DNA of 64,000 nt from an uncultured Verrucomicrobiota bacterium. GTDB lineage: Bacteria; Verrucomicrobiota; Verrucomicrobiia; Limisphaerales; UBA9464. Location: assembly GCA_903907995.1 (NCBI GenBank), contig CAIVQH010000041.1, positions 248,001 to 312,000 on the forward strand, written 5' to 3'. Position numbers and translations under genes: made by a program. Under the pieces are notes generated by a model, which was not told the DNA's origin, did no database searches, and worked only from the letters and a program-made list of their open reading frames with translations. Below, piece by piece: positions 9,556 through 54,954 of the stretch. Every line of letters begins with the position of its first letter. Within the stretch, counting starts at the first letter, position 1.

Positions 9556-10263
9556 ATGCGCAACCCGATCATTGTCGCCCTTGATCTGCCCACCGCCACC
9601 CAGGCCCTCGCGCTGGCGCGCCAGGTCGCGCCCTTCGTCGGCGCCTTCAAGGTGGGCAAGGAACTTTTCGTCAGCGCTGGGCCGGACATCGTGCGCGAAC
9701 TGCGAGCGACCGGCGCCAGCGTGTTTCTCGACCTCAAGTTTCACGACATCCCCAATACCGTCGCCAAGGCCGTGACTGCCGCAACCCGTCTCGACGTGCA
9801 GATGCTCACGATCCATTGCAGCGGCGGCAGCGAGATGATGCGCGCGGCGGAGACGGCGGCGCAAAACACCGCCAAGGAGCTGGGCCGCCCGGCCCCGCTG
9901 GTGCTCGGCGTCACGGTCCTTACCAGCATGGACAGCAAAACGCTGGCCGAACTCGGCGGTGAGACCGATGTCACGCAACAGGTCGAACGGCTGGCCCGGC
10001 TCGCCGTGACTTCCGGCCTGCGAGGCCTTGTCTGTTCGCCCCTGGAACTGCCCGTGTTGCGAACCTTTCTCCTGCCTGCCATGCAGTTGGTCACCCCCGG
10101 CATCCGCACCGGCGCGGAAAAGGCCGACGATCAGAAACGCACGCTCAGTCCGCAAGAAGCCATGGCCGCCGGCGCCAGCTGGCTTGTGATCGGCCGGCCC
10201 ATCACCGGCGCCCCGGAGCCGGCGAAAGCCGCCAAGGCGATCTGGGATTCGCTACGGGCGTAA
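9556..10263 (+). CDS. pyrF: orotidine 5'-phosphate decarboxylase
   Basis: Last step of UMP synthesis, cytoplasmic. From ATG 9556 the protein has 235 residues, typical for the class that carries the catalytic array D59-x-K61-x-x-D64 (LDLKFHDIPNT) with Lys32 in AFKVGKELF; these are all present. The phosphate-binding VTPGIR and the C-terminal VIGRPI are also visible. The reading frame is open back to 9409, but the extra residues are not pyrF-like and fall in the divergent intergenic region, so the internal ATG is used. It ends directly against an inverted octamer-repeat array, converging on the double-barrel gene. Confidence 0.96.
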   Translation: MRNPIIVALDLPTATQALALARQVAPFVGAFKVGKELFVSAGPDIVRELRATGASVFLDLKFHDIPNTVAKAVTAATRLDVQMLTIHCSGGSEMMRAAETAAQNTAKELGRPAPLVLGVTVLTSMDSKTLAELGGETDVTQQVERLARLAVTSGLRGLVCSPLELPVLRTFLLPAMQLVTPGIRTGAEKADDQKRTLSPQEAMAAGASWLVIGRPITGAPEPAKAAKAIWDSLRA

Positions 10264-10347
10264 GTCAGTAATCAGTGAATCAGTGGACTGCAGAAGACCA
10301 TCAACCCTTCGGCTCCACTACTGATCACTGACTACTGATTCACTGTA
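10264..10347. repeat. inverted AATCAGTG octamer array (R2)
   Basis: Left array 10264-10287 of AATCAGTG/AGTAATC-type units and right array 10314-10347 in opposite orientation, about 26 bp apart. It begins on the base after the pyrF stop and fills the convergent gap to the next gene. The arms can fold into a long imperfect hairpin, so a bidirectional terminator role is plausible. Related arrays occur at 15394-15441 and 54783-54954. Confidence 0.75.
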
Positions 10348-15842: not shown

Positions 15843-16616
15843 TCAGACTTCGCCGAGGCGCGCCTGCAGTTCCGCCAGACTGCAGGTCATGTCCAATCGC
15901 GTGCCGTTCTTGAGCAACAGCGAATGGCGGCCGGAGCCGGCCGGCTGGATCTCGCGAATGCAGGCGAGGTTCACGATCACCGAGCGGCTGATGCGCATGA
16001 AGCCTGCCGGCGCCAGCCGGGCCTCCATGGCCGAGCTGGTTTCGCGGATGATATGCTGCTCCTTGCCCGAATGCAGGACGACGTAGTTGCCCGCCGCTTC
16101 GGCATGGGTGATCTCTTCGGGCTTGAGGAACAAAATCCGCTCCGCAGACCGGACCAGTATCCGCCCTCCGCCAGCGACGGGTGCGTGGAGCTGGCCCAAG
16201 AGGGCCTTCAGCTCGGGATCAGCCTGGCGGGAACTCTTTTCCAAGCGGGCCCGTGCCTTTTTCAGCGCGATTTTGAAGCGCGCTTCACTGAAGGGCTTGA
16301 GCAGGTAGTCCAGCGCGTTGAATTCAAAGGCTCGGATCGCGTGCTCATCGTGCGCGGTCGTGAAAATGACGACTGGAATGGGACCCGGCGAAAGGGTTTC
16401 GAGCACCTCGAAGCCGTTCAGCCGCGGCATCTGCACATCGAGAAAAAGCAGGTCCGGCAGGCGTTTCTGCGTTTCCTTGAGGGTCTGCGCGCCGTCGGCG
16501 CACTCGGCCACGACTTCCACGTCCGCCTCCTCCTCGAGCAGGGAGCGAACCCGCTCGCGCGCGAGCGGTTCGTCGTCGGCAATGATGGTGCTGATTTTCC
16601 TCAAATTATTCGTCAT
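15843..16616 (-). CDS. LytTR-family response regulator
   Basis: 257 residues: receiver domain (Asp14/Asp15 acidic pair, phospho-acceptor Asp60 in LLFLDVQMP, Thr86/87, Lys107 in LLKPF) followed by a LytTR DNA-binding domain (about 155-257). It is the output partner of the kinase encoded immediately upstream. The ATG at 16616 lies inside the kinase gene (11-bp overlap) and within a heptamer repeat; there is no separate ribosome-binding site, so expression depends on translational coupling. Confidence 0.93.
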   Translation of the reverse strand: MTNNLRKISTIIADDEPLARERVRSLLEEEADVEVVAECADGAQTLKETQKRLPDLLFLDVQMPRLNGFEVLETLSPGPIPVVIFTTAHDEHAIRAFEFNALDYLLKPFSEARFKIALKKARARLEKSSRQADPELKALLGQLHAPVAGGGRILVRSAERILFLKPEEITHAEAAGNYVVLHSGKEQHIIRETSSAMEARLAPAGFMRISRSVIVNLACIREIQPAGSGRHSLLLKNGTRLDMTCSLAELQARLGEV

Positions 16617-17997
16617 TCGAAACTCGAAACTCGGCCCTTGCCGTGTTCCAGGGAATCTCAACGCGGACGATAACGCCTCCCGTCTCGCGGGGGGATAATT
16701 CCAGCTTCTGCCGCGGGCCGTAAAGAGCCTGGAGCCGCTCCCGGAGGTTGGCCAAACCGATTCCTGTTCCGGCCTTGGTAAGGACCGCGTCCGCGGCCGG
16801 TGCTGGATCACCGGAACAGGCAGTACCGCTGGCGAGTCCGACCCCATCATCCTCCACCGTCAGCATGAGCATTCCGTCTTGGCGGGATGCACTCACCCGC
16901 ACCACTCCCCCCTTCTCGGCCGGCTCAATTCCATGCCGGATGGCATTCTCCACCAGTGGTTGCAAAACCAGCGTCGGCACCCGGCAGTCCAGCGCCGACG
17001 GTTCGATGTCCTGTTCCACGCGCAGCTTGTCGCCGAACCGGGTTTGCTGAATCTCCAGATAACGCCGCACGAACTCCAGTTCCTCACGGAGGGTGCCCTC
17101 GTGTCGCTCGGACTGGCTGAGGGCCAGGCGCAGCAGCTCGCTCAGCGCCACCAGCGTCGTTTCGGCCAGACGCGGATCGCGTCGAAGCAGGGCGGTGATC
17201 GCATTGAGGCTGTTGAACAGGAAATGCGGCTGCAACTGGGCCTTGAGCGTATTGAGACGCGCGGTGGCGAGATTGGATTCGAGAACAAGCGCCCGGCGTT
17301 CCCGCTCCCGCAGACGCCGGTGGAAGTTGACGGAATGGGCCAGGCCAGTGACCGCCCCATAGGCCAGCAGGTCCAGTATGGTGGAGCGCACGAACTCTTT
17401 CCATGTGGGTGGGCGTGGCGAAAGGCGTCGGGAATCGTTCGGTAGCGGCGCCGGCACCTGGATCGGCTCATCACTCCCGGCAATCCGGCCAAGGACTGAA
17501 CTGCCGCCTAGCCCATCGGGCCCGGACGACGCAGTTCCGGGAGCCACTAACACCCGAGGGGGGCGCGGTGCGGGTGTCCGGAAATCAATCACATGGCACG
17601 CCCAAGCAAAAGCCAGGCAGACCGCCATATTGAGTGGCAGGTGGCGGCGGAGGCGCTCCCGTTCCAGGGGAAAGTACCAGGCCAACAAGGCCAGGTAGGG
17701 ACTGAACAGAACCCACGGATAAGCGCGTTGGAGGCCGAGAGCATGGCCGAAGATTGCATGCACCTTCTCGGTGAAGCCGGGCTGGTCCACTTCGCTATCC
17801 CGGAAAACCCACACTGACGGCAGGCCATTGCTTTCCCCGAGCCACCAGAGGGCAAAGGCGACAAAGGCCGTCCACCCCAGCACCCCAAGCCACACGATTC
17901 GGGGCTGCCGCTGCGGATGCGGCGGCGTCCCTGCTGGAACGGGATGGACTGCGTTGATCAAATTGGCACCCGACGCGGACTCGGTTTCAGTCCACAT
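16606..17997 (-). CDS. LytS/AlgZ-type sensor histidine kinase
   Basis: 463 residues. Four predicted membrane segments in the first 225 residues (around 34-54, 93-110, 121-138, 206-222) form the sensor. The His_kinase (PF06580) domain has phospho-acceptor His258 in LQPHFLFNSLNA, Asn351 in LVENAIRHGIE and a DDGVGL ATP-binding box. No known ligand domain is fused. The last residues EFRVSNDE are encoded by a heptamer array. Pairing with the LytTR regulator is certain from the overlap; the stimulus and target genes are unknown. Confidence 0.93.
   Translation of the reverse strand: MWTETESASGANLINAVHPVPAGTPPHPQRQPRIVWLGVLGWTAFVAFALWWLGESNGLPSVWVFRDSEVDQPGFTEKVHAIFGHALGLQRAYPWVLFSPYLALLAWYFPLERERLRRHLPLNMAVCLAFAWACHVIDFRTPAPRPPRVLVAPGTASSGPDGLGGSSVLGRIAGSDEPIQVPAPLPNDSRRLSPRPPTWKEFVRSTILDLLAYGAVTGLAHSVNFHRRLRERERRALVLESNLATARLNTLKAQLQPHFLFNSLNAITALLRRDPRLAETTLVALSELLRLALSQSERHEGTLREELEFVRRYLEIQQTRFGDKLRVEQDIEPSALDCRVPTLVLQPLVENAIRHGIEPAEKGGVVRVSASRQDGMLMLTVEDDGVGLASGTACSGDPAPAADAVLTKAGTGIGLANLRERLQALYGPRQKLELSPRETGGVIVRVEIPWNTARAEFRVSNDE
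16609..16633. repeat. GAGTTTC heptamer array at the kinase/regulator junction
   Basis: On the minus strand the units are GAGTTTC, GAGTTTC, GAATGAC, GAATAAT. The array encodes the kinase C-terminus and, in the third unit, contains the ATG of the response regulator. Confidence 0.7.
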
Positions 17998-22225: not shown

Positions 22226-23498
22226 TCGCCAGGCCTTCCTCGGCCTGCTGATGCGACAGGTTCAGGGCGGGCAGCAGCCGCACAATCTGGTTGCCGCTCG
22301 GGATGGTGAGCACACCCGCCTCGTGCAGGCGGTTGACGAACTGCATGCTCGCGGCCTTGTCCTGCGCGGCAAAGGCGCGGATGCGTTCGCGGTCCTGCAG
22401 CTCGATGCCGAGCATGAAGCCAAGGCCGCGCGCGCCTTTCACGACCCCGGGATATTGGTCGGCGAGCCGCTGGATGCCCGTCTTCAGGTAATCGCCAGTC
22501 GCGCGGACGTTGTCGGCCAACCGGTCGCGTTCGATAACATCGAGGATTTTTAACGCCACAGCGCAGCCGAGCGGTGTGCCACCAAAAGTGGTGCCGTGCG
22601 TGCCCGCGCCCAGCAGGTCACAGAGCTTCATGCCATGCGCCTCTTCCCGCACCCAGAACGCGCCCATCGGGAAGCCACCCCCAAGCGACTTTGCCATCGA
22701 GATGCCGTCCGGCAGGAAGCCTTCGGCCCCCGGCACGCCTTCCAGCACGCGCTGGAAACTCTGGAAGCGCCCCGACCGAAAATGGCCGCACTGCACCGCG
22801 TCGATGAACAGCAGCAGCCGCTTCTCATTGCAGAGCTGACGCAGGCCGAGCAGGTATTCGGCGGTCGCGGGTGTCACGCCGCCCTCGCCCTGGATGCCCT
22901 CGATCAGGATCGCCGCCGTCGCCGGCGACAGCGCGTCGCGCATCGCCTGAAGATCGTTAAACGGCACGTGGCGGAAGCCCGGAATGATCGGCTCGAAACC
23001 TTTCTTCACCTTGTCCTGACCCGTCGCCGCGATGCCGCCGAGCGTGCGGCCGTGAAAAGAATTGATCGCGGTGATGATCTCGAAGCGGCCCTCGTCGTGG
23101 CCAAACTTGCGGGCGAGCTTGTAGAGTCCTTCGTTCGCCTCGGCACCCGAGTTGCAGAAGAACACTTTGCCCGGCGCAAGGTGTCCCACAAGCCGCTGCG
23201 CCAGCCGGCCCTGTGGTCCCTGGTAGTAGAGGTTCGACACGTGGACGAGCTTGCGCGACTGCTCGATCAGGGCGTCGGTGATCTCCGAATTGGCGTGCCC
23301 CAGCGCACACACGGCGATGCCGCCGCCGAGGTCGAGATAGCGTTTGCCCGCAACGTCCCACACATAGCTGCCGGCACCGTGGCTGAGCACGAGCTCGAAG
23401 CGTCCATAGCTAGGCACGACAAAGCGGCTGAACAGCTCGCGGATCTCCGCGAACTGGTTGTGAACGATGGCCGGCGGCGCAGGAACAATGTCTCTCAT
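22194..23498 (-). CDS. argD: acetylornithine aminotransferase
   Basis: 434 residues from ATG 23498 (ATG 23513 is an alternative). PLP-dependent class III transaminase of arginine biosynthesis, cytoplasmic. Seen: CNSGAEANE (about 115), FHGRTLG (about 148), the PLP-binding Lys270 in SMAKSLGGGFPMG, and HGTTFGG. The usual DEVQ at the PLP ring nitrogen reads DAVQ here (Asp233 kept, Glu replaced by Ala). argB and argJ lie on the same strand within 6 kb, so this is part of a loose arginine cluster. Confidence 0.93.
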   Translation of the reverse strand: MRDIVPAPPAIVHNQFAEIRELFSRFVVPSYGRFELVLSHGAGSYVWDVAGKRYLDLGGGIAVCALGHANSEITDALIEQSRKLVHVSNLYYQGPQGRLAQRLVGHLAPGKVFFCNSGAEANEGLYKLARKFGHDEGRFEIITAINSFHGRTLGGIAATGQDKVKKGFEPIIPGFRHVPFNDLQAMRDALSPATAAILIEGIQGEGGVTPATAEYLLGLRQLCNEKRLLLFIDAVQCGHFRSGRFQSFQRVLEGVPGAEGFLPDGISMAKSLGGGFPMGAFWVREEAHGMKLCDLLGAGTHGTTFGGTPLGCAVALKILDVIERDRLADNVRATGDYLKTGIQRLADQYPGVVKGARGLGFMLGIELQDRERIRAFAAQDKAASMQFVNRLHEAGVLTIPSGNQIVRLLPALNLSHQQAEEGLAIIEGVVKSVG

Positions 23499-23565
23499 CG
23501 AATGCGGGCGCATCGCCGCAAAAAGCGGCGCGCGATGCAATGTGAATCTGCGATGAGGTCGGGCG

Positions 23566-23643
23566 GATGTAGCAGCCGAGGTGACGAGGCTACGTCTGAC
23601 GAAGAAGTTAGAGCCTCCTCATGTCGGCTGTTACGAGGAGGCT
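23566..23643. repeat. hairpin repeat R5 downstream of rnhA
   Basis: A block starting GATGTAGCAGCCGAGG and an inverted, imperfect copy, the latter containing a perfect AGCCTCCTC / GAGGAGGCT stem with a 14-base loop (23612-23643). It fills the gap between rnhA and argD and has the structure of a REP/BIME-like element. No protein is encoded in 23499-23753. Confidence 0.7.
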
Positions 23644-23753
23644 TGCGCAATCGAACCGCGACTCAAGGCAGGGCGGCCGCCTTGCGTCCATGAGTCGGAC
23701 GTAAAATCGGATTTTCCATCGAAATGGGCGCGAAGGCGTATGCCGCGACCGCC

Positions 23754-24293
23754 TCACAACAGCCCATCAGCCTTGCCCAACTCGCGCTGCGTAAACTCCG
23801 CCAGCGCGGCGCGCAGCTGGGCGCTCGAATATTTTCTCCTCATCTCCGCCATCGCCTCGCCCGCGAGGCGGTCGCAGCGCTCGTTCAGCTCGTGTCCGGC
23901 GTGGCCCTTCAGCCACTTCCAGGTGATGCGGTGCTTAGACGCCAGTACATCCAGCTCCTGCCACTGGTCCTGGTTCTTGACCGGCTGCTTGTCCTGGGTG
24001 CGCCAGCCGTTGCGCTTCCAGCCGGCAACCCATTTGGTGATGCCCTGCCGCAGGTAGCTGGAATCGGTATGAAACTCAACCTCGCAGGGTTGGTTCAGCG
24101 CCTTCAGCGCCTGAATGGCCGCCTGCAATTCCATGCGGTTGTTGGTGGTGGCCGGCACGCCGCCCGACAGCTCCCACATCTGGTCGCCGTGTTCGATCAC
24201 CCATGCCCACGCGCCCACGCCGGGGTTGCCCTGGCACCCGCCATCGGTGTGGATCACCACCCGCTCCGGCACGTTGCATTTAACCGCACTCAC
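23754..24293 (-). CDS. rnhA: ribonuclease HI
   Basis: 179 residues from GTG 24293, starting one base after the stop of the upstream gene. Removes RNA from RNA:DNA hybrids. Catalytic DEDD set visible: Asp17 (HTDGGCQGNPG), Glu55 (NNRMELQAA), Asp77 (HTDSSYLRQG) and Asp141 (NERCDRLA), with the flexible His region KGHAGH at 130-135. The C-terminal 25 residues extend beyond the usual 155 and are helical. Likely co-transcribed with the GH20-like gene. Confidence 0.95.
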   Translation of the reverse strand: MSAVKCNVPERVVIHTDGGCQGNPGVGAWAWVIEHGDQMWELSGGVPATTNNRMELQAAIQALKALNQPCEVEFHTDSSYLRQGITKWVAGWKRNGWRTQDKQPVKNQDQWQELDVLASKHRITWKWLKGHAGHELNERCDRLAGEAMAEMRRKYSSAQLRAALAEFTQRELGKADGLL

Positions 24294-32605: not shown

Positions 32606-32621
32606 TGCCAAGGGGGCCGAA

Positions 32622-32787
32622 GGAGACAGGAGACAGGAGGGACTGCGTCGGGAGTCAGGAGGAGGAGGGGCAACGGAGCAACGCGCCATCCGGCCTTCCA
32701 CACGCCCTAGTTATGAGTTACGACATTCGCCGTTCGCCGCCCCGCTCCTGACTCCCGGCCGCAAGGCCGCTCCTGTCTCCTGTCTCC
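32622..32787. repeat. composite repeat with R10 modules and GAGTTAC heptamers
   Basis: Left module 32622-32661 (GGAGACAGGAGACAGGAGGG ... GGAGTCAGGAG), an internal GTTATGAGTTACGAC heptamer stretch near 32710, and an inverted variant 32745-32787 containing the GGCCGCAAGGCC palindrome. The left module is 39/40 identical to 34368-34407 (opposite strand). It fills the gap between the sigma gene and the broken pentapeptide gene; no ORF is supported here. Confidence 0.75.
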
Positions 32788-32802
32788 TTCAGCCACCGCC
32801 GG

Positions 32803-34300: not shown

Positions 34301-34407
34301 GAGAAGTTACGAGTTACGAGTCAGGGAATGACGAGTTTGGAGTTGCGAGTTATGAGTGCCCTCCCAACTCCTGACTCCGGACGCAGTCCCTCCTGTCTCC
34401 TGTCTCC
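34301..34407. repeat. GAGTTAC heptamer array plus R10 module
   Basis: Heptamer-like units 34301-34358 (GAGTTAC, GAATGAC, GAGTTTG, GAGTTGC, GAGTTAT) followed by a 40-bp R10 module at 34368-34407. It occupies almost all of the gap between the secreted-protein gene and the pentapeptide gene. The same two ingredients occur at 32622-32787 on the other side of the pentapeptide gene. Confidence 0.75.
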
Positions 34408-34412
34408 TTCGC

Positions 34413-36461
34413 TCAGGGATGGTTCAGCCGGTAGTAGGTCGTGCCGCCCGGTGTGAGCCGGAGGACCTGCTGATCGCCTTCGACCGTGGGCGCCGTGGTG
34501 ACGGGCTGCCAGTTCGGCGCTCCGAGATCAGCGGTCGATTCCAAGGTGTAGCCTTCGGCTGCCGTCGGCCACGAGATCACCAGTTTGTGGTCCGTGCCCA
34601 CCGTCACACCGAGGGCCGGCGCTTCGACCGGTTTGCAGGCCGCGAGAGGATTCTGCCCGGCCTTGGGACCGCACGGCCGGATCACGCCGTACCGCACGCT
34701 CGTGAAGAAGATCTTGTCCTCCAGCGTGAAACGCGCCGCCGCCTGCGGGGTCTGGTTCACCCCGATGAACTTCATGTCCGGGATCTCCCAGTAGGCCGTG
34801 CGCCATTTGTCGGTGCCTTCCAAGGTCACGAAAAAGCTGTCCGGCGTGAACCCGAACGTCGTCGTGCCGTTCTGGTCCGTCATGTAAACCTCCGGCTTGA
34901 ACCGCTTGCCCGCCAGGGCCGGATCATCGTAGTAGGTCACACAGATCGTCAGGTCGGCGTTCGGCTGGGATGACGGACCAAAGCGCTCGTCCAGGATGGC
35001 GAAGTTCAGATACTTGTGCTCCGCCCCCGGCGTGCCGTCTTCGCGTGCCGGGCGGATCGCCTGGCGCCGGTCATTGGCCGGGCCAGCCACGTCCTGGATC
35101 ATTTCCTGGTCCCCACCGCTGGTGCCCACATCCAGGCCGTCGGTGATTCCCTTGTCCAGATCCAGCTCAGCCGAGTTGCCCCACAGGTCGGTGCACACGC
35201 GCGGATCGGCAAAACAGTCAGCCAGCGGGTCCAGGCCGGCCAGCGGATGCGTGCCCACGCGGAGCACGGCGAGTTCCACCCGGGAGACGAACACCTGCGC
35301 GTTGGCGGAGACGAACCGGGGCCCGGCGGTGAAGGCGCCGGCATTGACCCCCTTGAGGTCCACCGCCGGAATGACCCAGGAACGGCGCACCCAGGCGCCG
35401 GTGCCCTCCAGCGTCGCGCGCTGGTCGGCCGGCACGACACCCACTCCGCCGGCGTCGTCGGTGGCATAGCTTTCCGGACCAAAGGTCACCTCCTGCCCGG
35501 CAAAGGCCGGATCATCATAATAATCCAGGCACACCTTGACGGTGTGGGGGTCGTTGCAGGGCTGGCCGAGGTAATTGCCGGTGATGCCGAAGTTGAGGAA
35601 GTTGTCGGCGCCATCCGCGCGCACGGCCTTCCGCGGGTCATTGGCCGGACCGATGTTCGCCGCAAAGGCCGCGGGCTGGCTGGCGTCGTTGATGACCACC
35701 AGGTGGTTCGTCACGCCGGCGGCCATGTCCAGGCCCGCGAGGTTCGTGTTGGGCTCCACATCGCATGCGCCCGCCGGGACGAACTTGTTGATGTCCTCCG
35801 GCTCACCGAAGGCTCCCTCCTCACCGAAGGCGACCGCGCGGATGATGAGGTTTGCCACGCTTTCGAAACGGATCGTGCCGCCGTTGACGCCGCCGGCCGT
35901 GGTGGCCCCCTGCGCATTGGCGGGAATGGAGCCGACCAGGTGGCTGCCGTCCGAGGCGCGGATGCCATTGGGAATGCGGAAGAGCACCCAGTTCCACTTC
36001 TTGTTGCGTGCATCCACGGGGATCTGCCCGCCGATGGGGAAGGCCAGTTCCGGCAGCGTGCCGGTCAGGAACTTGAAATCGCGCGGCAGGCCCTGGGCAT
36101 TGAACAGGGCGGCGTCGCCATAAACCTGCACGAGGATGTCGATGAAATCCTTGTCGGCCCACTCGCCATAGCTCGCGTCGGCGATGTTCAGAAAGCTGCC
36201 GGTGACCTTCTTGCCCTTGTGCCCACCGATGGTGATGTTGACCGTGCCCTGGTCGCCACCGCTCAGGATGGTCAGTTCATTGGCCAACCAGGTGGCGCTG
36301 GGCGGCTGCAGGTTGTCGTCGGTGATGACGTAGTGCACCTTCTTGCCAGGCTGCTTCGTCGAGGGCCAGTCCTCCGGGGTAAAGGGTCCGCTCTGGGCCT
36401 GCGAAGCCAGGCTGCCCACAAAGGCAGCAAGCATGAGGGATAGAATACGCTGGAGCTTCAT
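34413..36461 (-). CDS. large secreted protein with two related beta domains
   Basis: 682 residues, signal peptide ending at SQAQS. Two related domains of about 190 residues follow an N-terminal region: each has GITDGLDVG/GVTNHLVVIND, a GPANDxR(Q/K)A(I/V)R segment, NFLNF/KYLNF, and a (C)LDYYDDPA/CVTYYDDPA motif with paired cysteines. The C-terminus (about 625-682) is a beta-sandwich ending KLVISWPTAAEGYTLESTADL, the layout common at the ends of verrucomicrobial secreted proteins. No catalytic motif is seen; binding function inferred. Divergent from the GH99-like gene across repeats. Confidence 0.75.
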   Translation of the reverse strand: MKLQRILSLMLAAFVGSLASQAQSGPFTPEDWPSTKQPGKKVHYVITDDNLQPPSATWLANELTILSGGDQGTVNITIGGHKGKKVTGSFLNIADASYGEWADKDFIDILVQVYGDAALFNAQGLPRDFKFLTGTLPELAFPIGGQIPVDARNKKWNWVLFRIPNGIRASDGSHLVGSIPANAQGATTAGGVNGGTIRFESVANLIIRAVAFGEEGAFGEPEDINKFVPAGACDVEPNTNLAGLDMAAGVTNHLVVINDASQPAAFAANIGPANDPRKAVRADGADNFLNFGITGNYLGQPCNDPHTVKVCLDYYDDPAFAGQEVTFGPESYATDDAGGVGVVPADQRATLEGTGAWVRRSWVIPAVDLKGVNAGAFTAGPRFVSANAQVFVSRVELAVLRVGTHPLAGLDPLADCFADPRVCTDLWGNSAELDLDKGITDGLDVGTSGGDQEMIQDVAGPANDRRQAIRPAREDGTPGAEHKYLNFAILDERFGPSSQPNADLTICVTYYDDPALAGKRFKPEVYMTDQNGTTTFGFTPDSFFVTLEGTDKWRTAYWEIPDMKFIGVNQTPQAAARFTLEDKIFFTSVRYGVIRPCGPKAGQNPLAACKPVEAPALGVTVGTDHKLVISWPTAAEGYTLESTADLGAPNWQPVTTAPTVEGDQQVLRLTPGGTTYYRLNHP

Positions 36462-36580
36462 AAGTAGTGGAATCAGAATGGTTTTAACAGCCCAACGCCC
36501 TGACGGAAGCCCAAAGTTCCAGCCAACGAAATTTGTGACCTATCAGATCATCTTAGTTGGCGTTTGGCTCCGGGCGCGTG

Positions 36581-36654
36581 GTGGGGCGAGCGTCCTCGCG
36601 AGCCGCAGCGGCCTGGGTCTGGGGCGGCCCGGCTCGCGAGGAGGCTCGCCCCAT
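36581..36654. repeat. 74-bp hairpin element R3, copy 1
   Basis: Arms of 25 bp beginning GTGGGGCGAGCGTCCTCGCG and their near-perfect inverse, with a 24-bp centre. A second copy with the same arm length and the same centre length is at 50712-50785. The centres differ. It lies in the divergent gap between two secreted-protein genes. Confidence 0.85.
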
Positions 36655-36688
36655 GGGGTTTCCTTTCAGCCGCCGAAGCGCTCCGGAA

Positions 36689-36824
36689 GTAGCGCAGGTT
36701 CGCAACCTTCCGTAGCGCAGGTTTTCAACCTGCAACCCGTGGAAAACTTCGACGCATTCGGCACACCTGCGGCCGGTGCAGCTTGCAAAGCTGCGATACA
36801 GCAGAATCCAATTCTGCGCTACCC
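36689..36824. repeat. four-hairpin repeat array R4
   Basis: Four short palindromes in a row, each linked to a GTAGCGCAG-type word: AGGTT-CGC-AACCT, CAGGTT-TT-CAACCTG, GCAGCTTGCAAAGCTGC, and CAGAATCCAATTCTG. It runs up to about 35 bp before the first plausible start of the GH99-like gene and may have replaced its original 5' end. The 36462-36688 part of the gap holds R3 and nothing coding. Confidence 0.8.
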
Positions 36825-36858
36825 ACGCCGCGTCGCCGCTCCCTTCCTTCATCCCTGG

Positions 36859-38619
36859 TTGAGTCTGGCGTGGCTGTTGGCGCTGCTCACCGCAGGTCAT
36901 CTTGGGGCCGCCCCCAATTCGCCGGCCGAGATCAATCCGCCCCTCGGTCCCTACATCGGCCTCACGCCGGCGGACTTCACCGACTCGCACACCTTCGCCA
37001 CCAACGACCGCGTGGTGCTCACGCCCTACTTCTATTGGTACGACTGTTATTCCGGCGCCCACCTCCTCGATCCCGACGGCTCCGACGCCCTCACCGAGCA
37101 TCCACCCACACTGACCGGTTTCTCCTACCTCTCCCGCGCGTGGCATCGCGGCCAGCTGGAAGACATGATGGTCGCCGGCATCGACGTGCTCCTGCCCGTC
37201 TATTGGGGTGAGCCCTCCCAACGCCTGCCCGGGAAACCCGTGTCGGCCCAGCCGTGGAGCTATGCCGGGCTGCCGCCGCTGGTCGCCGCCCGGGAAGAAC
37301 TGCTCAGCCAGGGAAAACAGCCGCCCTACATCGGCATGTTCTACGACACGTCCACGCTGATGTTCAACGCGGCCGGCGGACGCATCGACCTCACCACGCC
37401 GCACGGACGCGAGTGGTTCTACGAAAGCGTACGGGACTACTTCTCCCTCATCCCTGCCAAACACTGGGCCATGATCGGCGGCCAGCCCGTCGTGTTCCTC
37501 TACTCCGCCAGCTTTGCCGCGGCCCATGACCAGAGCTGCATCGACTACCTCAGCGAGGCCTTCGCACGCGATTTTGGCGGCCGCACGCCCTTTGTCGTCC
37601 GCGAAGTATCCTGGCAGGTTCACACCGCCAATGTCTACGCCTGGGGAGGGGCGCTCGGTCTCAGGAACCCTGGCGTCGCCTCGCTGGGGCCCGGCTACAA
37701 TGACTCGGCCGTCCTCGGCCGTACGCCCCTCATCGTGCCGCGCGAGGGCGGCGCCTTCTTCGAGCGCAACTGGCTCAGCTTCCTGCGCCGCCCTTCCAAG
37801 CTCGTCATGATCGAGACCTGGAATGAGTTCCACGAAGGCACCGACATCGCACCCTCCCGCGAATACGGCGAACAATACCTCGCGCTCAACCGCCGCTATG
37901 TGGACCTCTTCAAGCAGGGCTTCGTGCCCCCGCCCGAAATCGGCCCCTTCACGGGCGCCCACCTCGTGAGCATCGAGCTGGCCGCCACCAACCGCCCCAG
38001 TGGCATCACCCAGTTCGACGGCGCCGACGGCACGACCGCCCCGGCGACCCTGGCCGGACGCGAGTGCCGGATCCTCACGCCCACCCCATACGCCGGCCAC
38101 TACCTCTATGCCCGGCTGGATGAGTCCTTCAAATGGGCCGACGAAATGGACCTCGTGCTGGTGGCCGATTATTTTGATGCCGCCGCCGGCACCCTTCAGG
38201 TCGAGTTCGATGGCAGCGACCCGGGCGCCCCCTTTCAGGGAGCCTACACGCTCGCCACGCCCCCTGTCGCCCTCACCGGCAGCCAGACGTGGAAAACGGC
38301 CAGCTTCCGCCTGCCCCGGGCCCGCCTGCTTAACCGCGAGAATGGTGGCGCCGATTTCCGGCTCAATAGCAGCATCCTCGGCCTCAACCGGGTGCAAATC
38401 GTACATCCGGGCGTGACCGTGGACCGCACCAAACCGGGGCCCGCCATGAACCTGGTGATCTGGGGCGAACCCGGTGCCAGCTACGCCCTGCAAACCTCAC
38501 CGGACCTGCTCCAATGGCGAGAGATCAGCAGCCTCCGCTTGGAAGGTGTCTCCCACGACTTCACTGATCAGGCCACCGGCACCGAACAAACACGCTATTA
38601 CCGCCTGATGGCGCAGTGA
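36859..38619 (+). CDS. GH99-like / DUF5010-type secreted glycoside hydrolase
   Basis: 586 residues if translation starts at TTG 36859. Residues after the signal-like helix (LSLAWLLALLTAGHLGAAP) form a (beta/alpha)8 enzyme: TPYFYWYDCYSG, GIDVLLPVYWGEP, YIGMFYDTSTL and IETWNEFHEGTDIAPS match GH99-like families, in which the Glu of WNEFHEG is near the active site. The C-terminal 150 residues are a beta-sandwich (SYALQTSPDLLQW) for binding or secretion. No ATG precedes the signal helix: the frame runs through the R4 hairpin array, and an Arg-Arg pair just upstream suggests the true start was displaced. Start is uncertain. Confidence 0.75.
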   Translation: MSLAWLLALLTAGHLGAAPNSPAEINPPLGPYIGLTPADFTDSHTFATNDRVVLTPYFYWYDCYSGAHLLDPDGSDALTEHPPTLTGFSYLSRAWHRGQLEDMMVAGIDVLLPVYWGEPSQRLPGKPVSAQPWSYAGLPPLVAAREELLSQGKQPPYIGMFYDTSTLMFNAAGGRIDLTTPHGREWFYESVRDYFSLIPAKHWAMIGGQPVVFLYSASFAAAHDQSCIDYLSEAFARDFGGRTPFVVREVSWQVHTANVYAWGGALGLRNPGVASLGPGYNDSAVLGRTPLIVPREGGAFFERNWLSFLRRPSKLVMIETWNEFHEGTDIAPSREYGEQYLALNRRYVDLFKQGFVPPPEIGPFTGAHLVSIELAATNRPSGITQFDGADGTTAPATLAGRECRILTPTPYAGHYLYARLDESFKWADEMDLVLVADYFDAAAGTLQVEFDGSDPGAPFQGAYTLATPPVALTGSQTWKTASFRLPRARLLNRENGGADFRLNSSILGLNRVQIVHPGVTVDRTKPGPAMNLVIWGEPGASYALQTSPDLLQWREISSLRLEGVSHDFTDQATGTEQTRYYRLMAQ

Positions 38620-39995: not shown

Positions 39996-40023
39996 GATTT
40001 ACGATTTGCGATTTACGATTTAC
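39996..40023. repeat. GATTTAC heptamer array
   Basis: Four perfect-register units: GATTTAC, GATTTGC, GATTTAC, GATTTAC. It lies between tRNA-Lys and vapB. Same period as, and similar in sequence to, the GAGTTTC arrays. Confidence 0.75.
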
Positions 40024-40209
40024 GAACGGAGCCGCCGAACGGGGACCGGAGGTGCAACGCGCTACCGTCATGGGCTTTCGCACTCCCGCCGGCAGAACGC
40101 TGGCCGCGTTGCCCCAGCCATCACTCCTGTCGCGAGGCATCCAACACAATTTGGACTTCGCCGCGTTTACGGCTTGCCCCCCGGAGTAAGACGCGTAAGA
40201 CATGACGCC

Positions 40210-43088: not shown

Positions 43089-44045
43089 ATGATCCCCAAG
43101 GAACTCCTCAAAAAGATCCGCCAGATCGAGATCCGCACCAAGCGGCTCGTCAGCGAATCCCTCGCCGGCCAGTACCACTCGGCCTTCAAGGGCCAGGGCA
43201 TGGACTTCGACGAGGTGCGCGAATACCAGCCGGGCGACGAGGTCCACGCCATCGACTGGAACGTCACGGCGCGGATGAACCATCCCTTCGTGAAGAAGTT
43301 CCGCGAGGAGCGCGAGCTGACGGTCATGCTGGTCGTGGACCTGAGCGGGTCGGGCCTGTTCGGCTCCGGGGAGCAGTCGAAGCGCGAGCTGGCCGCCGAA
43401 CTGGCCTCGGTGCTCGCCTTCTCCGCGATCCGCAACCAGGACAAGGTCGGCCTGCTGCTCTTCACCGAGGTGGTCGAGAAGTTCATCCCGCCCCGCAAGG
43501 GCCGGCGGCACGTCCTGCGGGTCATCCGCGACATCCTGGCTTTCAAGCCGAAGTGGCGCGGCACCTCGCTGAACGGAGCGCTGGAGTTCGTGAACCGCAT
43601 CCTGCCGCACCGGTCGGTGGTCGTGGTCGTCTCGGATTTTCTTGGTGAGACCAACCCAAGCCGGGCCGAGATCATGGCGCATCTCAAGCGCAGCGCGGTC
43701 CACAGCGAGACGCTGGGGCGGACCTCCGCCACGGTGCTCCGGCAGACCAGCCGCAAGCACGACCTCGTTGCCGTGCAGATCATCGATCCCTACGAGCTGA
43801 CGCTGCCCAATCTCGGGCGCCTGGTACTCCAGGATGCCGAAACGGGTGAACTGGTGGAGGTGAACACCTCCGACGAACGCCGGCGCACGGCCTTTGCGAA
43901 CCGCCAGGACAAGACGCAACGCGAGCTGGAACGCCTGTTCCGGGGCGCCAAGGTGGATGCCATCCGGGTCCGTACCGATGAACCGTACGAGCACGCGCTC
44001 GCCCAGTTCTTCGACACCCGCGAAAAACGACGGAGGCATGGATGA
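43089..44045 (+). CDS. DUF58 domain protein
   Basis: 318 residues. Contains the DUF58 core REYQPGDEVHAIDWNVTAR (about 45-63) followed by a vWA-like fold with VVDLSGSGLFGSG (about 82-94), a MIDAS-like DxSxS. These proteins accompany MoxR and Bat proteins and probably form the cytoplasmic partner of the ATPase. Its stop TGA overlaps the next gene's ATG. Confidence 0.92.
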   Translation: MIPKELLKKIRQIEIRTKRLVSESLAGQYHSAFKGQGMDFDEVREYQPGDEVHAIDWNVTARMNHPFVKKFREERELTVMLVVDLSGSGLFGSGEQSKRELAAELASVLAFSAIRNQDKVGLLLFTEVVEKFIPPRKGRRHVLRVIRDILAFKPKWRGTSLNGALEFVNRILPHRSVVVVVSDFLGETNPSRAEIMAHLKRSAVHSETLGRTSATVLRQTSRKHDLVAVQIIDPYELTLPNLGRLVLQDAETGELVEVNTSDERRRTAFANRQDKTQRELERLFRGAKVDAIRVRTDEPYEHALAQFFDTREKRRRHG

Positions 44046-44746
44046 AGGGGGAGTTTCGAGTTTCGAGTTTCGAATTGCGAATGAGAGGGCGGCTGGCGGT
44101 AGCCGGCGTTCTGAGTTTCGTTTTTTGCCATTCGATGGTGGCGGCGACGAATGCGGTGACGAAGCCCGGCGTGGCGGTTCCGACGACGTTGCACGACATC
44201 AAGGGGCCGATTGAGATTCCCACGGTACTGATGTGGCTGATCCGGATCGGCATCGTGCTGGTGCTGGCCGGGCTGCTCTGGCTGGGCTGGTGGCTGTGGC
44301 AGAAGCGTCGTCCCAAGGGCGAGACGGTGGCGCTGGTTTCTCCGGATCAGCGGGCTCGCGAACGGCTGGCGCAGGCGCTGGACCTCATTGGCCAGCCCGA
44401 ACCCTTCTGCACGGCCGTGTCCGAGATCACCCGAACCTATCTGGAGGAACGCTTCGGCCTGCGCGCCCCGGACCAGACGACGGAGGAATTTCTCGCCGAA
44501 CTGCCGCGCAGCATCGTGCTGGATCTGCGGCACAAGCAGTTCCTCGCCGACTTTCTGACCCAATGCGACCTCGTGAAGTTCGCGCGCTTTGAACCGACCC
44601 GGGTGGAACTGGAGCAGTTGCACGCGTCCGCGCTGAACCTCGTCGAGGAAACGGTTCCTCGCAGTGCGCCCGCCGGAGCGGTCCCGCCGCCGCTGCCGCC
44701 GGCCGCGCCATCGCCGCCCCCACCCTTCCCCGTCGCCCAGCCATGA
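44042..44746 (+). CDS. Bat-operon membrane protein (DUF4381-like)
   Basis: 234 residues. The ATG at 44042 has a GGAGG five bases upstream and overlaps the DUF58 stop. Residues 4-14 (EFRVSSFELRM) come from the heptamer array; an alternative ATG at 44081 lies in the last unit. A signal-like helix (about 17-35) and a strong membrane helix IEIPTVLMWLIRIGIVLVLAGLLWLGWWLW are followed by a cytoplasmic helical domain and a proline-rich tail. This layout matches the DUF4381 protein usually placed between DUF58 and batA. Confidence 0.8.
   Translation: MKGEFRVSSFELRMRGRLAVAGVLSFVFCHSMVAATNAVTKPGVAVPTTLHDIKGPIEIPTVLMWLIRIGIVLVLAGLLWLGWWLWQKRRPKGETVALVSPDQRARERLAQALDLIGQPEPFCTAVSEITRTYLEERFGLRAPDQTTEEFLAELPRSIVLDLRHKQFLADFLTQCDLVKFARFEPTRVELEQLHASALNLVEETVPRSAPAGAVPPPLPPAAPSPPPPFPVAQP
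44051..44085 (+). repeat. in-frame GAGTTTC heptamer array
   Basis: Five exact-register units: GAGTTTC three times, GAATTGC, GAATGAG. It lies inside the N-terminal coding sequence of the DUF4381-like gene and contains an in-frame ATG (44081-44083) in the fifth unit. Confidence 0.85.
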
Positions 44747-45741: not shown

Positions 45742-45800
45742 GCACGGAGAACGAAGCTAATGAGCATCAATAATTGCCCGCCAACAAGCAGCCGAGGCCC

Positions 45801-45959
45801 TTCTCCCTCACCCCGGCCCTCTCCCGCTGGGAGAGGGGGAATTGTCGTCCGTCTCTCAGCGAACGCGGGCGCAGGATTGGCCGGAAAAACTTCCAATCAT
45901 CCAAAAACACCCGCCGGCTATTCCCTCTCCCAGCGGGAGAGAGCCGGGGTGAGGGAGAA
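45801..45959. repeat. long inverted repeat R8 (CCTCTCCC family)
   Basis: Arms 45801-45842 and 45920-45959 are near-perfect inverses (TTCTCCCTCACCCCGGCC...), each with an inner CCCTCTCCC-GC-TGGGAGAGGG palindrome; the centre is about 77 bp. It sits between batA and batB, the only wide gap inside the Bat operon. Similar 'CTCTCCC..GGGAGAG' elements are widespread in Gram-negative genomes. Confidence 0.8.
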
Positions 45960-45980
45960 CGGCATCTGCCTTCCAAGGTC

Positions 45981-46020
45981 TCCGCGCTCCGGACGCTCCA
46001 CGCTCCGCGCTCCGCGCTCG
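45981..46020. repeat. TCCGCGC heptamer array before batB
   Basis: Units TCCGCGC, TCCGGACGC, TCCACGC, TCCGCGC, TCCGCGC, then a degenerate TCGGCAGC, ending about 15 bp before the batB ATG, which reads GCTCATG. Same 7-bp period as the GAGTTTC arrays but a different unit. Confidence 0.6.
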
Positions 46021-46034
46021 GCAGCGCCCCGCTC

Positions 46035-49902: not shown

Positions 49903-50648
49903 AGCCGCGTCTTTTCACCCAACTGTGTTGCCTGATGCTGGGCCTGGTAGGCGGCCGGCTCATGGCCGCCGATGCTGAAGCCGCGTTTGATGCCGCCAAC
50001 CGTCTGCTCGCACAAGGGCACCCGGCGGAGGCCGCACGGGCTTACGCGAACATCTCGCCCGACGGCGCGACCTCCGTCGCGCTCGAACGCAACTGGGCCC
50101 AGGCCTGCTATCAGAATCAGCAGCCAGGTCTCGCGCTGCTCCATTTGCGCCGCGCCGAGCGGCTCGCCCCGCGCAACGAGGCCGTGCGGGCGGACCTGGC
50201 CCTTTTGCGCAGCAAGCTCGGCACCCCGGCCCCGGCATCCGATGACCTGCAATTTTTGCGGTCCCTCCGGCTCGATGAGTGGGCCTGGCTGTCCCTGATC
50301 GCCGTGTGGCTCTGGTTCGCCCTCCTTTTCGCGGCGAAGCTGAGCCCGCGCCTGCGCTCAGCGGTAAGCGGGTTCACCTTGGGCACCGGGCTCGTGGCCC
50401 TCGTGCTTTGCGGTCTGCTGGCGGCGGCGCATGCCCGACAATCGGGTGCTCCCGATGCCGTGGTGCTGGCCGGCGACACGCCCGTGCGCCAAAGCCCGCT
50501 CGACGAGGCCAAAGCCACTTTCACCGTGCCCGCCGCGACCGAGCTGCGCGTCCGCGATCAGAAGGACGGCTGGCTGATGGTCGAGGACGCCGGTACCCAG
50601 CGTTTCGGCTGGCTGAAGCAGGCGCAGGTCGGACGTATACTACCCTGA
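49899..50648 (+). CDS. batE: BatE, TPR/SH3-like membrane protein
   Basis: 249 residues. Signal helix, TPR region (about 26-105), two membrane helices (about 126-144 and 155-178), and a C-terminal bacterial SH3-like domain (DTPVRQSPLDEAKATFTVPAATELRV). Last gene of the Bat operon, overlapping batD by four bases. A 74-bp hairpin element (R3) follows and could end the transcript. Confidence 0.9.
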   Translation: MKPRLFTQLCCLMLGLVGGRLMAADAEAAFDAANRLLAQGHPAEAARAYANISPDGATSVALERNWAQACYQNQQPGLALLHLRRAERLAPRNEAVRADLALLRSKLGTPAPASDDLQFLRSLRLDEWAWLSLIAVWLWFALLFAAKLSPRLRSAVSGFTLGTGLVALVLCGLLAAAHARQSGAPDAVVLAGDTPVRQSPLDEAKATFTVPAATELRVRDQKDGWLMVEDAGTQRFGWLKQAQVGRILP

Positions 50649-50711
50649 GCAGTGCATTTTCCGAGCTGAGGATGTTGCCGGCACAGGAACGCGCCAAACA
50701 TACAACGCAGG

Positions 50712-50785
50712 GTGGGGCGAGCGTCCTCGCGAGCCGTGGCCACCTTGCTCGGAGCTGCCCCGGCTCGCGAGGACGCTCGTCCCAC
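50712..50785. repeat. 74-bp hairpin element R3, copy 2
   Basis: Two 25-bp arms starting GTGGGGCGAGCGTCCTCGCG and ending in the inverse, with a 24-bp centre. Same geometry as 36581-36654, different centre. It lies downstream of batE. No gene is seen in 50649-50921 apart from this. Confidence 0.85.
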
Positions 50786-50921
50786 CGAGTCCCCCTTGTT
50801 TCGGAAGCAGAATCGCTCCGGCAGTTGGAAAGCATTCAACATTGAAAGATGAGGCCCCTCGACGATCGCACCGAACTAAACCGTTGACCCGGAGGCGTTG
50901 GCTCCGTTTTCTCTCCGTGCG

Positions 50922-51917
50922 ATGTCCCCCCTCCGAAAAGCAAGGCTGACACTCGGTCTCATTTTGGCCGGCGTGGGCATTGCGGGATGCGCCACCGGAG
51001 GAAGCAGCACTTCATCCTCCAACACCGGAGTCACCCTGGTTCAGACCAATGATGTGGTGCAGGTGAGCTTCGACGGGAAGCTCTTCACCGAATACCATTT
51101 CCGCGACGTTTCCCGCCCGTTTCTCTACCCCATCCTCGGCGCGAACGGGGAGCAGTTCTCCCGTCGCTGGCCACAGGAAACCGTCCCGGATGAGGAGCAC
51201 GACCACCCGCATCACCACGCGCTGTGGTGGGCCCACGGCGATGCCAACGGCGTGGATTTCTGGAGCGAGGAGAAGAACGCCGGCCGCACCGTCCACCAGT
51301 CCTTCGCCGAACTTTCGTCGGGCAAAGAAACCGGGGTGCTCACCACCCGGAACCGCTGGATTGCCAAGGATGGCAAGGTCATTGCCTCCGACGAGCGCAC
51401 CATGCGCTTTTACCATCCGCACGGTACGGAACGGGTCATGGATTTTGAGGTCACCGTCTTCGCCTCCAACGGCGACCTGACCCTCGGCGACACGAAAGAG
51501 GGCTCCATGGCGCTGCGTCTCGCGGAGTCCATGCGGCTGACCAAACCTGACAAGCAGCCGGGCGCCGGGCATATCGTGAACTCCGCGGGGGTCCGCGACG
51601 GCGAGACGTGGGGCAAGCGGGCCGAATGGTGCGACTATTACGGGCCGGTGGATGGCCATACGGTCGGCGTCGCCATTTTCGACCACCCGTCCAACCCGCG
51701 TCACCCGACCTGGTGGCACGTCCGCGACTACGGCCTGTTCGCGGCCAACCCCTTCGGCCTGCACGATTTTGAGAAGAAGGAAAAGGGCGCCGGTAACATG
51801 AAGATTCCCTCTGGCCAGTCCGTTACCTTCCGCTACCGTTTTCTGTTCCATGAGGGCGACACCGAATCCGCCCACGTGGCCGACCAGTTTTCCGAGTATG
51901 TAAAAGCCAGGAAGTAA
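50922..51917 (+). CDS. DUF6807 (PmoA-like) lipoprotein
   Basis: 331 residues from ATG 50922, with a lipobox (GIAGC, Cys23). The conserved core DHPHHHALWWAHGDANGVDFW and later YYGPVDGHTVGVAIFDHP and HVRDYGLFAANPFG are typical of DUF6807, annotated in databases as 'PmoA-like' although unrelated in function to methane monooxygenase. The His cluster suggests a metal or sugar-binding site. It is followed 42 bp later by a Tat-exported Gfo/Idh oxidoreductase, a very common pairing in this phylum, so both probably act on the same exported sugar pathway. Confidence 0.88.
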   Translation: MSPLRKARLTLGLILAGVGIAGCATGGSSTSSSNTGVTLVQTNDVVQVSFDGKLFTEYHFRDVSRPFLYPILGANGEQFSRRWPQETVPDEEHDHPHHHALWWAHGDANGVDFWSEEKNAGRTVHQSFAELSSGKETGVLTTRNRWIAKDGKVIASDERTMRFYHPHGTERVMDFEVTVFASNGDLTLGDTKEGSMALRLAESMRLTKPDKQPGAGHIVNSAGVRDGETWGKRAEWCDYYGPVDGHTVGVAIFDHPSNPRHPTWWHVRDYGLFAANPFGLHDFEKKEKGAGNMKIPSGQSVTFRYRFLFHEGDTESAHVADQFSEYVKARK

Positions 51918-54782: not shown

Positions 54783-54954
54783 CCAGTGATCAGTGATTCA
54801 GTCATCAGTAATCAGAGTGATGCGCTAGGAAATAGAGTGAGCTGTTGCCGAGAGGGCGACACAGGGAAGGCAGATAGCCAGAGGTGTACCCAACCAAATC
54901 CAGCACCCGTCCATTCACCGATTACTGATTACTGGTTACTGATTCACTGCTCAC
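54783..54954. repeat. inverted AATCAGTG octamer arrays
   Basis: Left array 54783-54819 and right array 54916-54954 in opposite orientation, about 96 bp apart, filling the convergent gap between the HupE-like and PD40 genes. The right array contains the stop codon of the PD40 gene. Closely similar in design to 10264-10347. Confidence 0.75.

Follow-up and report, generated by a model that had tools for sequence, protein, structure and literature searches.

The heptamer array at a LytS-type kinase/LytTR regulator overlap is probably one copy of a dispersed, lineage-specific repeat

The window analysed here, a stretch of 64,000 nucleotides from an uncultured Verrucomicrobiota bacterium, contains two overlapping gene pairs with an array of tandem heptamers at the junction, one consisting of a sensor kinase and its response regulator and the other of a DUF58 gene and a DUF4381-like gene. 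Gene calls and starts were obtained with a simple caller of our own. The features of both junctions are as follows:

16606..17997, minus strand: LytS-type sensor histidine kinase (PF06580, 3.6e-25; PF02518, 4e-11)
16605..16632, minus strand: heptamer array GAGTTTC GAGTTTC GAATGAC GAATAAT, 28 bp, based on sequence and family membership
16632-16626, 16625-16619, 16618-16612 and 16611-16605, minus strand: individual units GAGTTTC, GAGTTTC, GAATGAC and GAATAAT
15843..16616, minus strand: LytTR response regulator, counted from the ATG in the array (PF00072, PF04397)
16602..16604, minus strand: TTG (in TTGAGG) immediately 3' of the array, the start position of orthologues (TTGA overlap, L072-L075)
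43089..44045, plus strand: DUF58 gene (PF01882, 2.4e-78), ending in a stop that is overlapped by the conserved ATGA start of the following gene
44042..44746, plus strand: DUF4381-like gene with ATGA overlap start, N-terminus MKGEFRVSSFELRMRGRLAVAG... and a sub-cut-off Pfam DUF4381 match (25.6 bits, cut-off 27.2 bits)
44051..44085, plus strand: heptamer array (GAGTTTC)3 GAATTGC GAATGAG in the part of the DUF4381-like gene that encodes the N-terminus (predicted signal peptide)

The kinase is composed of His_kinase and HATPase_c domains, the regulator of Response_reg and LytTR domains. The conserved core of the kinase ends with ...GGVIVRVEIPW and the array begins 15 nt later; on the minus strand, ...GGCAAGGGCC is followed by the four array units and then by TTGAGG. 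Encoded within the array are the last eight residues of the kinase (E-F-R-V-S-N-D-E) and its TAA stop, and unit 3 (GAATGAC) harbors an in-frame ATG of the regulator (16616-16614), resulting in an 11-bp overlap with the kinase (ATGACGAATAA). The TTG 3' of the array is in the same frame, four codons behind this ATG, for which no obvious Shine-Dalgarno sequence can be observed. The four units, the kinase end and the regulator ATG are as described in the initial annotation on the minus strand; only its range (16606-16633) is one base off.

The doubled-unit pattern GARTTTCGARTTTC gives 53 matches (about 36 arrays) in the 5.1-Mb genome (G000) and the reversed pattern 5, so the repeat at the kinase junction does not reflect chance and, as had been supposed, belongs to a genome-wide family. 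Congener G003 displays 32 matches (22 for the reversed control), six other congeners none, and the GARTTTC-type doubled unit is abundant only in G000 and G003. GAATGAC represents a genuine unit of this family, being used 10 times in 46 runs of at least three units and six times as the last unit. About a dozen unit families, mostly intergenic, together reach a density of roughly 8 heptamer arrays per 100 kb; the statistics in general stem from sampled stretches, some of them picked for holding GARTTTC arrays, which affects the density of that family and should not affect polarity. In 844 kb, comprising most of contigs C41 and C60, 57 arrays with a lag of 7 are intergenic and 11 coding, even though 88% of the sequence is coding, compared with 1, 15, 13 and 3 intergenic arrays at lags of 5, 6, 8 and 9. 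For the analysed part of C41, an order-5 Markov model predicts 2 arrays, whereas 51 are observed. Units drift along the arrays, and identical units recur at dozens of unlinked loci. Only some of the other families are G-rich (GGGGAGC, GGTCCCG), and GARTTTC is devoid of a G-tract. Almost no lag-7 arrays were found in the small samples (20-40 kb each) of order-level relatives, and a search of the literature available to us yielded no earlier report for Verrucomicrobia. Arrays of period 8 and 10, for example CTTCAACC, are about as numerous as those of period 7 in the congener G007 (L111-L117, L137-L140).

Further arrays of these families are found within the window:

10262..10347: convergent pair of CAGTRAT-type arrays, the right arm of which is a GTTCGCC-type array in G003
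32621..32788: convergent AGGAGAC and CTCCTGT arrays that share a spacer
34305..34408: CTCCTGT array, which has the core GGACTGCGTC in common with 32621, beside a GAGTTAC-type array
39996..40025, plus strand: GATTTAC array between divergent genes
45993..46022: GCTCCGC array in a spacer insert of about 290 bp that is absent from G003
54784..54944: convergent CAGTGAT / ATTACTG arrays between convergent genes

The non-repeat core GGACTGCGTC is common to the arrays at 32621, 34390 and elsewhere. A MITE-like palindromic element with CTCCCTCACCCCGGCCCTCTCCCGCTGGGAGAGGG arms, present in several genome copies, occupies positions 45790-45960 of the window; the orthologous spacer of G003 lacks both this element and the neighbouring heptamer array. 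Two more dispersed palindrome families are located in spacers, GGGGCGAGCGTCC... (36422-36918, 50609-50981) and GTAGCAGCCGAGGTGACGAGGC... (23459-23813).

Arrays are often positioned close to gene ends and read away from them. In the genome of the window, 39 of 105 arrays lie within 11 bp of a gene end (19.7 expected), and this proximity is weaker in G003 (14 versus 9.9 expected). Arrays of the GA family are distributed +28/-3 on the left side and +7/-21 on the right side (Fisher p=2.6e-7; stretches picked for GARTTTC arrays included). With one array per spacer and all families of the own genome pooled, the ratio is 31:8 versus 6:29 (p=1.2e-7), the orientation labels of the pooled counts having been set after the data were seen and the per-family Fisher tests being independent of labels; in G003 alone, polarity is weaker (p about 0.05). 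The direction of the unit is away from the nearer gene end. According to our own reading, 18 of the GA-type arrays lying no farther than about 11 bp from a gene end in this genome are located at stops and 4 at starts, the closest mostly 0-11 bp after the stop. The preferential insertion at overlaps suggested by the initial annotation thus gives way to a preference for gene ends of any kind, chiefly stops, with fixed polarity.

Since arrays begin right after stops with inward polarity, they could constitute the arms of RNA or DNA hairpins, either terminators or stabilisers of mRNA 3'-ends, that are selected at gene ends, with single arrays representing half-elements. Convergent arms are indeed common in spacers: some spacers, among them L060:14395-14483, consist almost entirely of two facing arrays, and an inverted partner (p<0.02) is detected for 11 of 56 arrays compared with 5 direct partners. 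Moreover, folds with z<-3 are found in 10 of 30 array-bearing spacers and in 6 of 60 spacers without arrays, and both arms have switched unit together in two slots. However, the difference in folding is only borderline (p=0.05), arrays are also located within ORFs, and both focal junctions are single-armed and lie between co-directional, probably co-transcribed genes. Spacers between convergent genes are not enriched either, as arrays are found in 5 of 37 convergent, 21 of 171 tandem and 4 of 51 divergent spacers, which excludes the terminator idea as far as it relies on such enrichment. Selection for hairpins is therefore a possible but rather doubtful account of the arrays.

A comparison of G000 with G003 over 370 kb of sampled aligned sequence (90.4% identity) illustrates the turnover of the arrays between species, each represented by one assembly and the relatives including MAGs. 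By our own reading, about 16 slots agree in their unit, often down to the individual letter; at 5 slots the units differ, and about 7 slots have an array in one genome only, some of these within inserts that measure up to about 300 bp. In two of the five unit-swapped slots (L041:6111/L197 and L132:15897/L221) both hairpin arms have changed. Hypervariable copy number was not seen in the G000/G003 slot comparison and is thereby ruled out between these two genomes; copy number often stays constant while whole arrays change unit. The DUF58/DUF4381 junction displays four unit types in five relatives (GAGTTTC in G000, (GATTTAC)4 in G003, (CTTTTGC)4 in G002/G004, and GAATGCG/GATTGCG in G014), the array being absent in most others. 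Although the DUF58 proteins of G000 and G003 are 99% identical, the units at this junction differ (GAGTTTC versus GATTTAC).

Arrays within ORFs are in frame in UvrA-like, RlmN-like, ApbA-like and molybdopterin oxidoreductase genes. The oxidoreductase (L069:9550-11922, minus strand) contains two in-frame GAATTTC-type arrays, encoding LEFEIRNSEFEILE and GEFRISND. At the first of these sites G003 encodes LRLKTENCELKTLE with another heptamer and at unchanged length; a GAAATTC-type unit in G000 faces a GAAAACT-type unit in G003, and the array segment is equal in length in nearly all orthologues, with or without an array. In the protein of L207 (residues 405-428; also L320/L321), a loop harbors a heptamer array in G000/G003 and an in-frame GTAG-type palindrome, GTAGCCGCCGAGGTGACGAGGC, in G002/G014.

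These cases, namely the DUF58/DUF4381 junction, L041:6111, L132:15897 and the oxidoreductase, would be examples of exchange in place: tentatively, and with rather low probability, such heptamer 'words' might be replaced at fixed slots, protein segments of conserved length included, by templated rewriting from a genome-wide vocabulary, with both hairpin arms being rewritten together. Alternatively, the arrays could result from pure replication slippage at random seeds, with a polymerase favouring period 7 and selection merely purging coding arrays. An excess of heptamers among bacterial repeats and a slippage hypothesis have been published (PMC4692102), and the drift of units along arrays is in line with such an origin. 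Nevertheless, slippage of this kind is improbable, given the same units at dozens of unlinked loci, the fixed polarity at gene ends together with inverted partners, the cores common to several loci, and a copy number that often stays the same between species where an entire array has changed its unit.

All orthologues of the kinase read at the junction (60-70% identity) have the same or a closely similar core end, ...VRVEIP(W); the EFRVSNDE tail is found in none of them, and their own tails are unconserved and differ between lineages. In agreement with the initial annotation, the conserved part of the homologues thus ends before the array. In the orthologues L072-L075, a TTGA without any array combines the stop of the kinase with the start of the regulator. 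The window has kept TTGAGG right after the array, aligned with L073 (TTGAGGAGAATCAGC), so it can be concluded that the array sits in an unconserved linker in front of an older coupled start. The distance between VRVEIPW and TTGA amounts to 17, 41, 41, 44 and 41 nt in orthologues versus 43 nt in the window, lengths that would fit insertion as well as overwriting. In the congener G007 (L076), TGA ends the kinase, and other heptamers, an ATCGCAG-type array and (GGACTTT)3, lie in the gap of about 110-130 nt before the regulator TTG. The close congener G003, at about 90% identity, has no orthologue of the kinase (best match 43%), and the comparison of this junction covers the orthologues at 60-70% identity.

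At the second junction, most of 30 relatives share the ATGA (44042) that overlaps the stop of DUF58, and its frame stays open through the array into the N-terminal segment wherever an array is present. Read from this frame, the N-termini are MKGEFRVSSFELRMRGRLAVAG... in G000, MRADLRFTIYDLRLPKRMG... in G003 and MSSRMRIAECGLRNEQ... in G014, all of which we read by eye as predicted signal peptides. In G004/G002 (L163/L164), the start of the DUF4381 product combines a basic segment from a purine-rich arm with the hydrophobic core LFCLLPFAFCLVAA from (CTTTTGC)4, which is likely a signal peptide built from facing heptamer arrays. Owing to the conserved ATGA frame, the ATG in the last unit of the array at 44051 is probably not the start of the gene; the array itself is present as had been proposed, and the ATGA upstream at 44042 speaks against its suggested function as a start.

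The initial annotation regarded the ATG within the array as a design shared by two independent coupled pairs, pointing to a role in coupling. This is not supported for either pair, as orthologous kinase/regulator pairs without the array (L072-L075) maintain the tight TTGA overlap, and at the DUF58/DUF4381 junction the conserved start lies upstream of an array that most relatives lack. Moreover, GAATGA occurs in 10 of 46 GA-type runs (about 1.2 Mb) and could occupy a start position only in these two, while the remaining runs are situated beside genes pointing the opposite way or within ORFs. Together with the upstream ATGA of the DUF4381-like gene, this rules out a shared start-in-array design. 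At neither junction is the array conserved in coupled orthologues, as a translational coupling element would be. An element that uses repeats around the overlap to attract ribosomes or a binding protein is, despite an ATG within the array, no obvious Shine-Dalgarno sequence and a published case of heptamers directly before start codons (Beggiatoaceae TAACTGA), highly improbable in view of orthologues that couple without an array, the predominance of stops over starts among GA-type arrays near gene ends, and a DUF4381 array downstream of the conserved start.

The nearest known kind of repeat is GGGAATC of Xanthomonas campestris and X. axonopodis, which forms dispersed heptamer arrays of at least two units, about 90% of them intergenic, located 28 nt from the 5' neighbouring ORF versus 160 nt from the downstream ORF, with many convergent pairs and with sequence and length varying among related species (PMC4692102). 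The arrays of the window have the same architecture, as they are dispersed tandem heptamers of at least two units, mostly intergenic (57/68), with polarity at gene ends and convergent pairs. However, the Xanthomonas unit is a single G-rich, quadruplex-forming G-tract sequence (GGGANTN), whereas about a dozen mostly non-G-tract units, exchange at slots and in-frame copies in genes are found here; because GARTTTC lacks a G-tract, the arrays are not members of the GGGAATC family. New here are the many units per genome, the wholesale exchange of units at orthologous slots of about 90% identical species, and the in-frame protein segments. Marine Beggiatoaceae possess a single heptamer, TAACTGA, as direct repeats in forward orientation just upstream of starts, with related heptamers rarely repeated, and a role in coupling or initiation through recruitment of ribosomes or a binding protein has been proposed (PMC4679880). 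In contrast, TAACTGA is not among the units listed here, and many different heptamers abut mainly stops; with 18 stop-proximal and 4 start-proximal GA arrays, a forward position ending just upstream of a start is not what characterizes them. The GGGGA(C/T)T repeats of Nostoc PCC 7120 and other cyanobacterial heptanucleotide repeats are likewise abundant, dispersed and mostly intergenic (PMC4692102). They differ from the present arrays in unit sequence, and inverted pairs are few in Nostoc. Rickettsia palindromic elements have inverted arms and also occur in frame within protein genes, but are longer and share a family consensus. In-frame copies and inverted arms are thus common to both, the arms here being tandem heptamers of varying sequence. 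RAYT transposases go with REP or GTAG-tagged palindromes. The latter are small palindromic intergenic repeats (PMC3733652). Five Y1_Tnp matches and GTAG-type palindromes are present in the genome; the heptamer arrays, however, carry no GTAG tag and do not consistently flank RAYT genes, which sets them apart from REP/RAYT systems and rules out a link to these transposases.

Taken together, the array at the kinase/regulator overlap is very probably one copy among hundreds of dispersed, lineage-specific heptamer arrays, built from GARTTTC or one of about a dozen other 7-mers, that come, go and exchange units in tolerant places irrespective of coupling, and the coupling of kinase and regulator would, with the same good probability, predate the array and not need it. 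Such tolerant places would include spacers and linkers, junctions of genes, signal peptides and C-terminal tails; the unit reads away from the abutted gene end, and the opposite side of the spacer often holds a second array that faces it. Between kinase and regulator, the array would have arisen, by insertion or overwriting alike, in the unconserved tail that follows the kinase core and precedes the ancestral TTGA stop/start, where it now would supply the last eight residues of the kinase and a new stop, and by chance an ATG four codons before the old TTG start of the regulator and in frame with it. The arrays may be copied from a genomic pool by templated or slippage-prone synthesis, with slippage alone and fold-back templating as further candidate routes. 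The kinase tail is presumably neutral with respect to function, and the ATG may be an earlier, new start of the regulator next to the old TTG, either of which could be the one in use. With about 16 slots preserved across 10% divergence, the arrays may also have a selected local function.

Heptamer arrays at gene overlaps should be read as regulatory devices only with caution. Reports of abundant heptamer repeats in bacteria go back years and have come without a mechanism. Congeners of about 90% identity that carry different heptamers at the same slots make the origin of these arrays testable by comparison of close genomes, and the repeats encode parts of proteins, such as the kinase tail and signal peptides.
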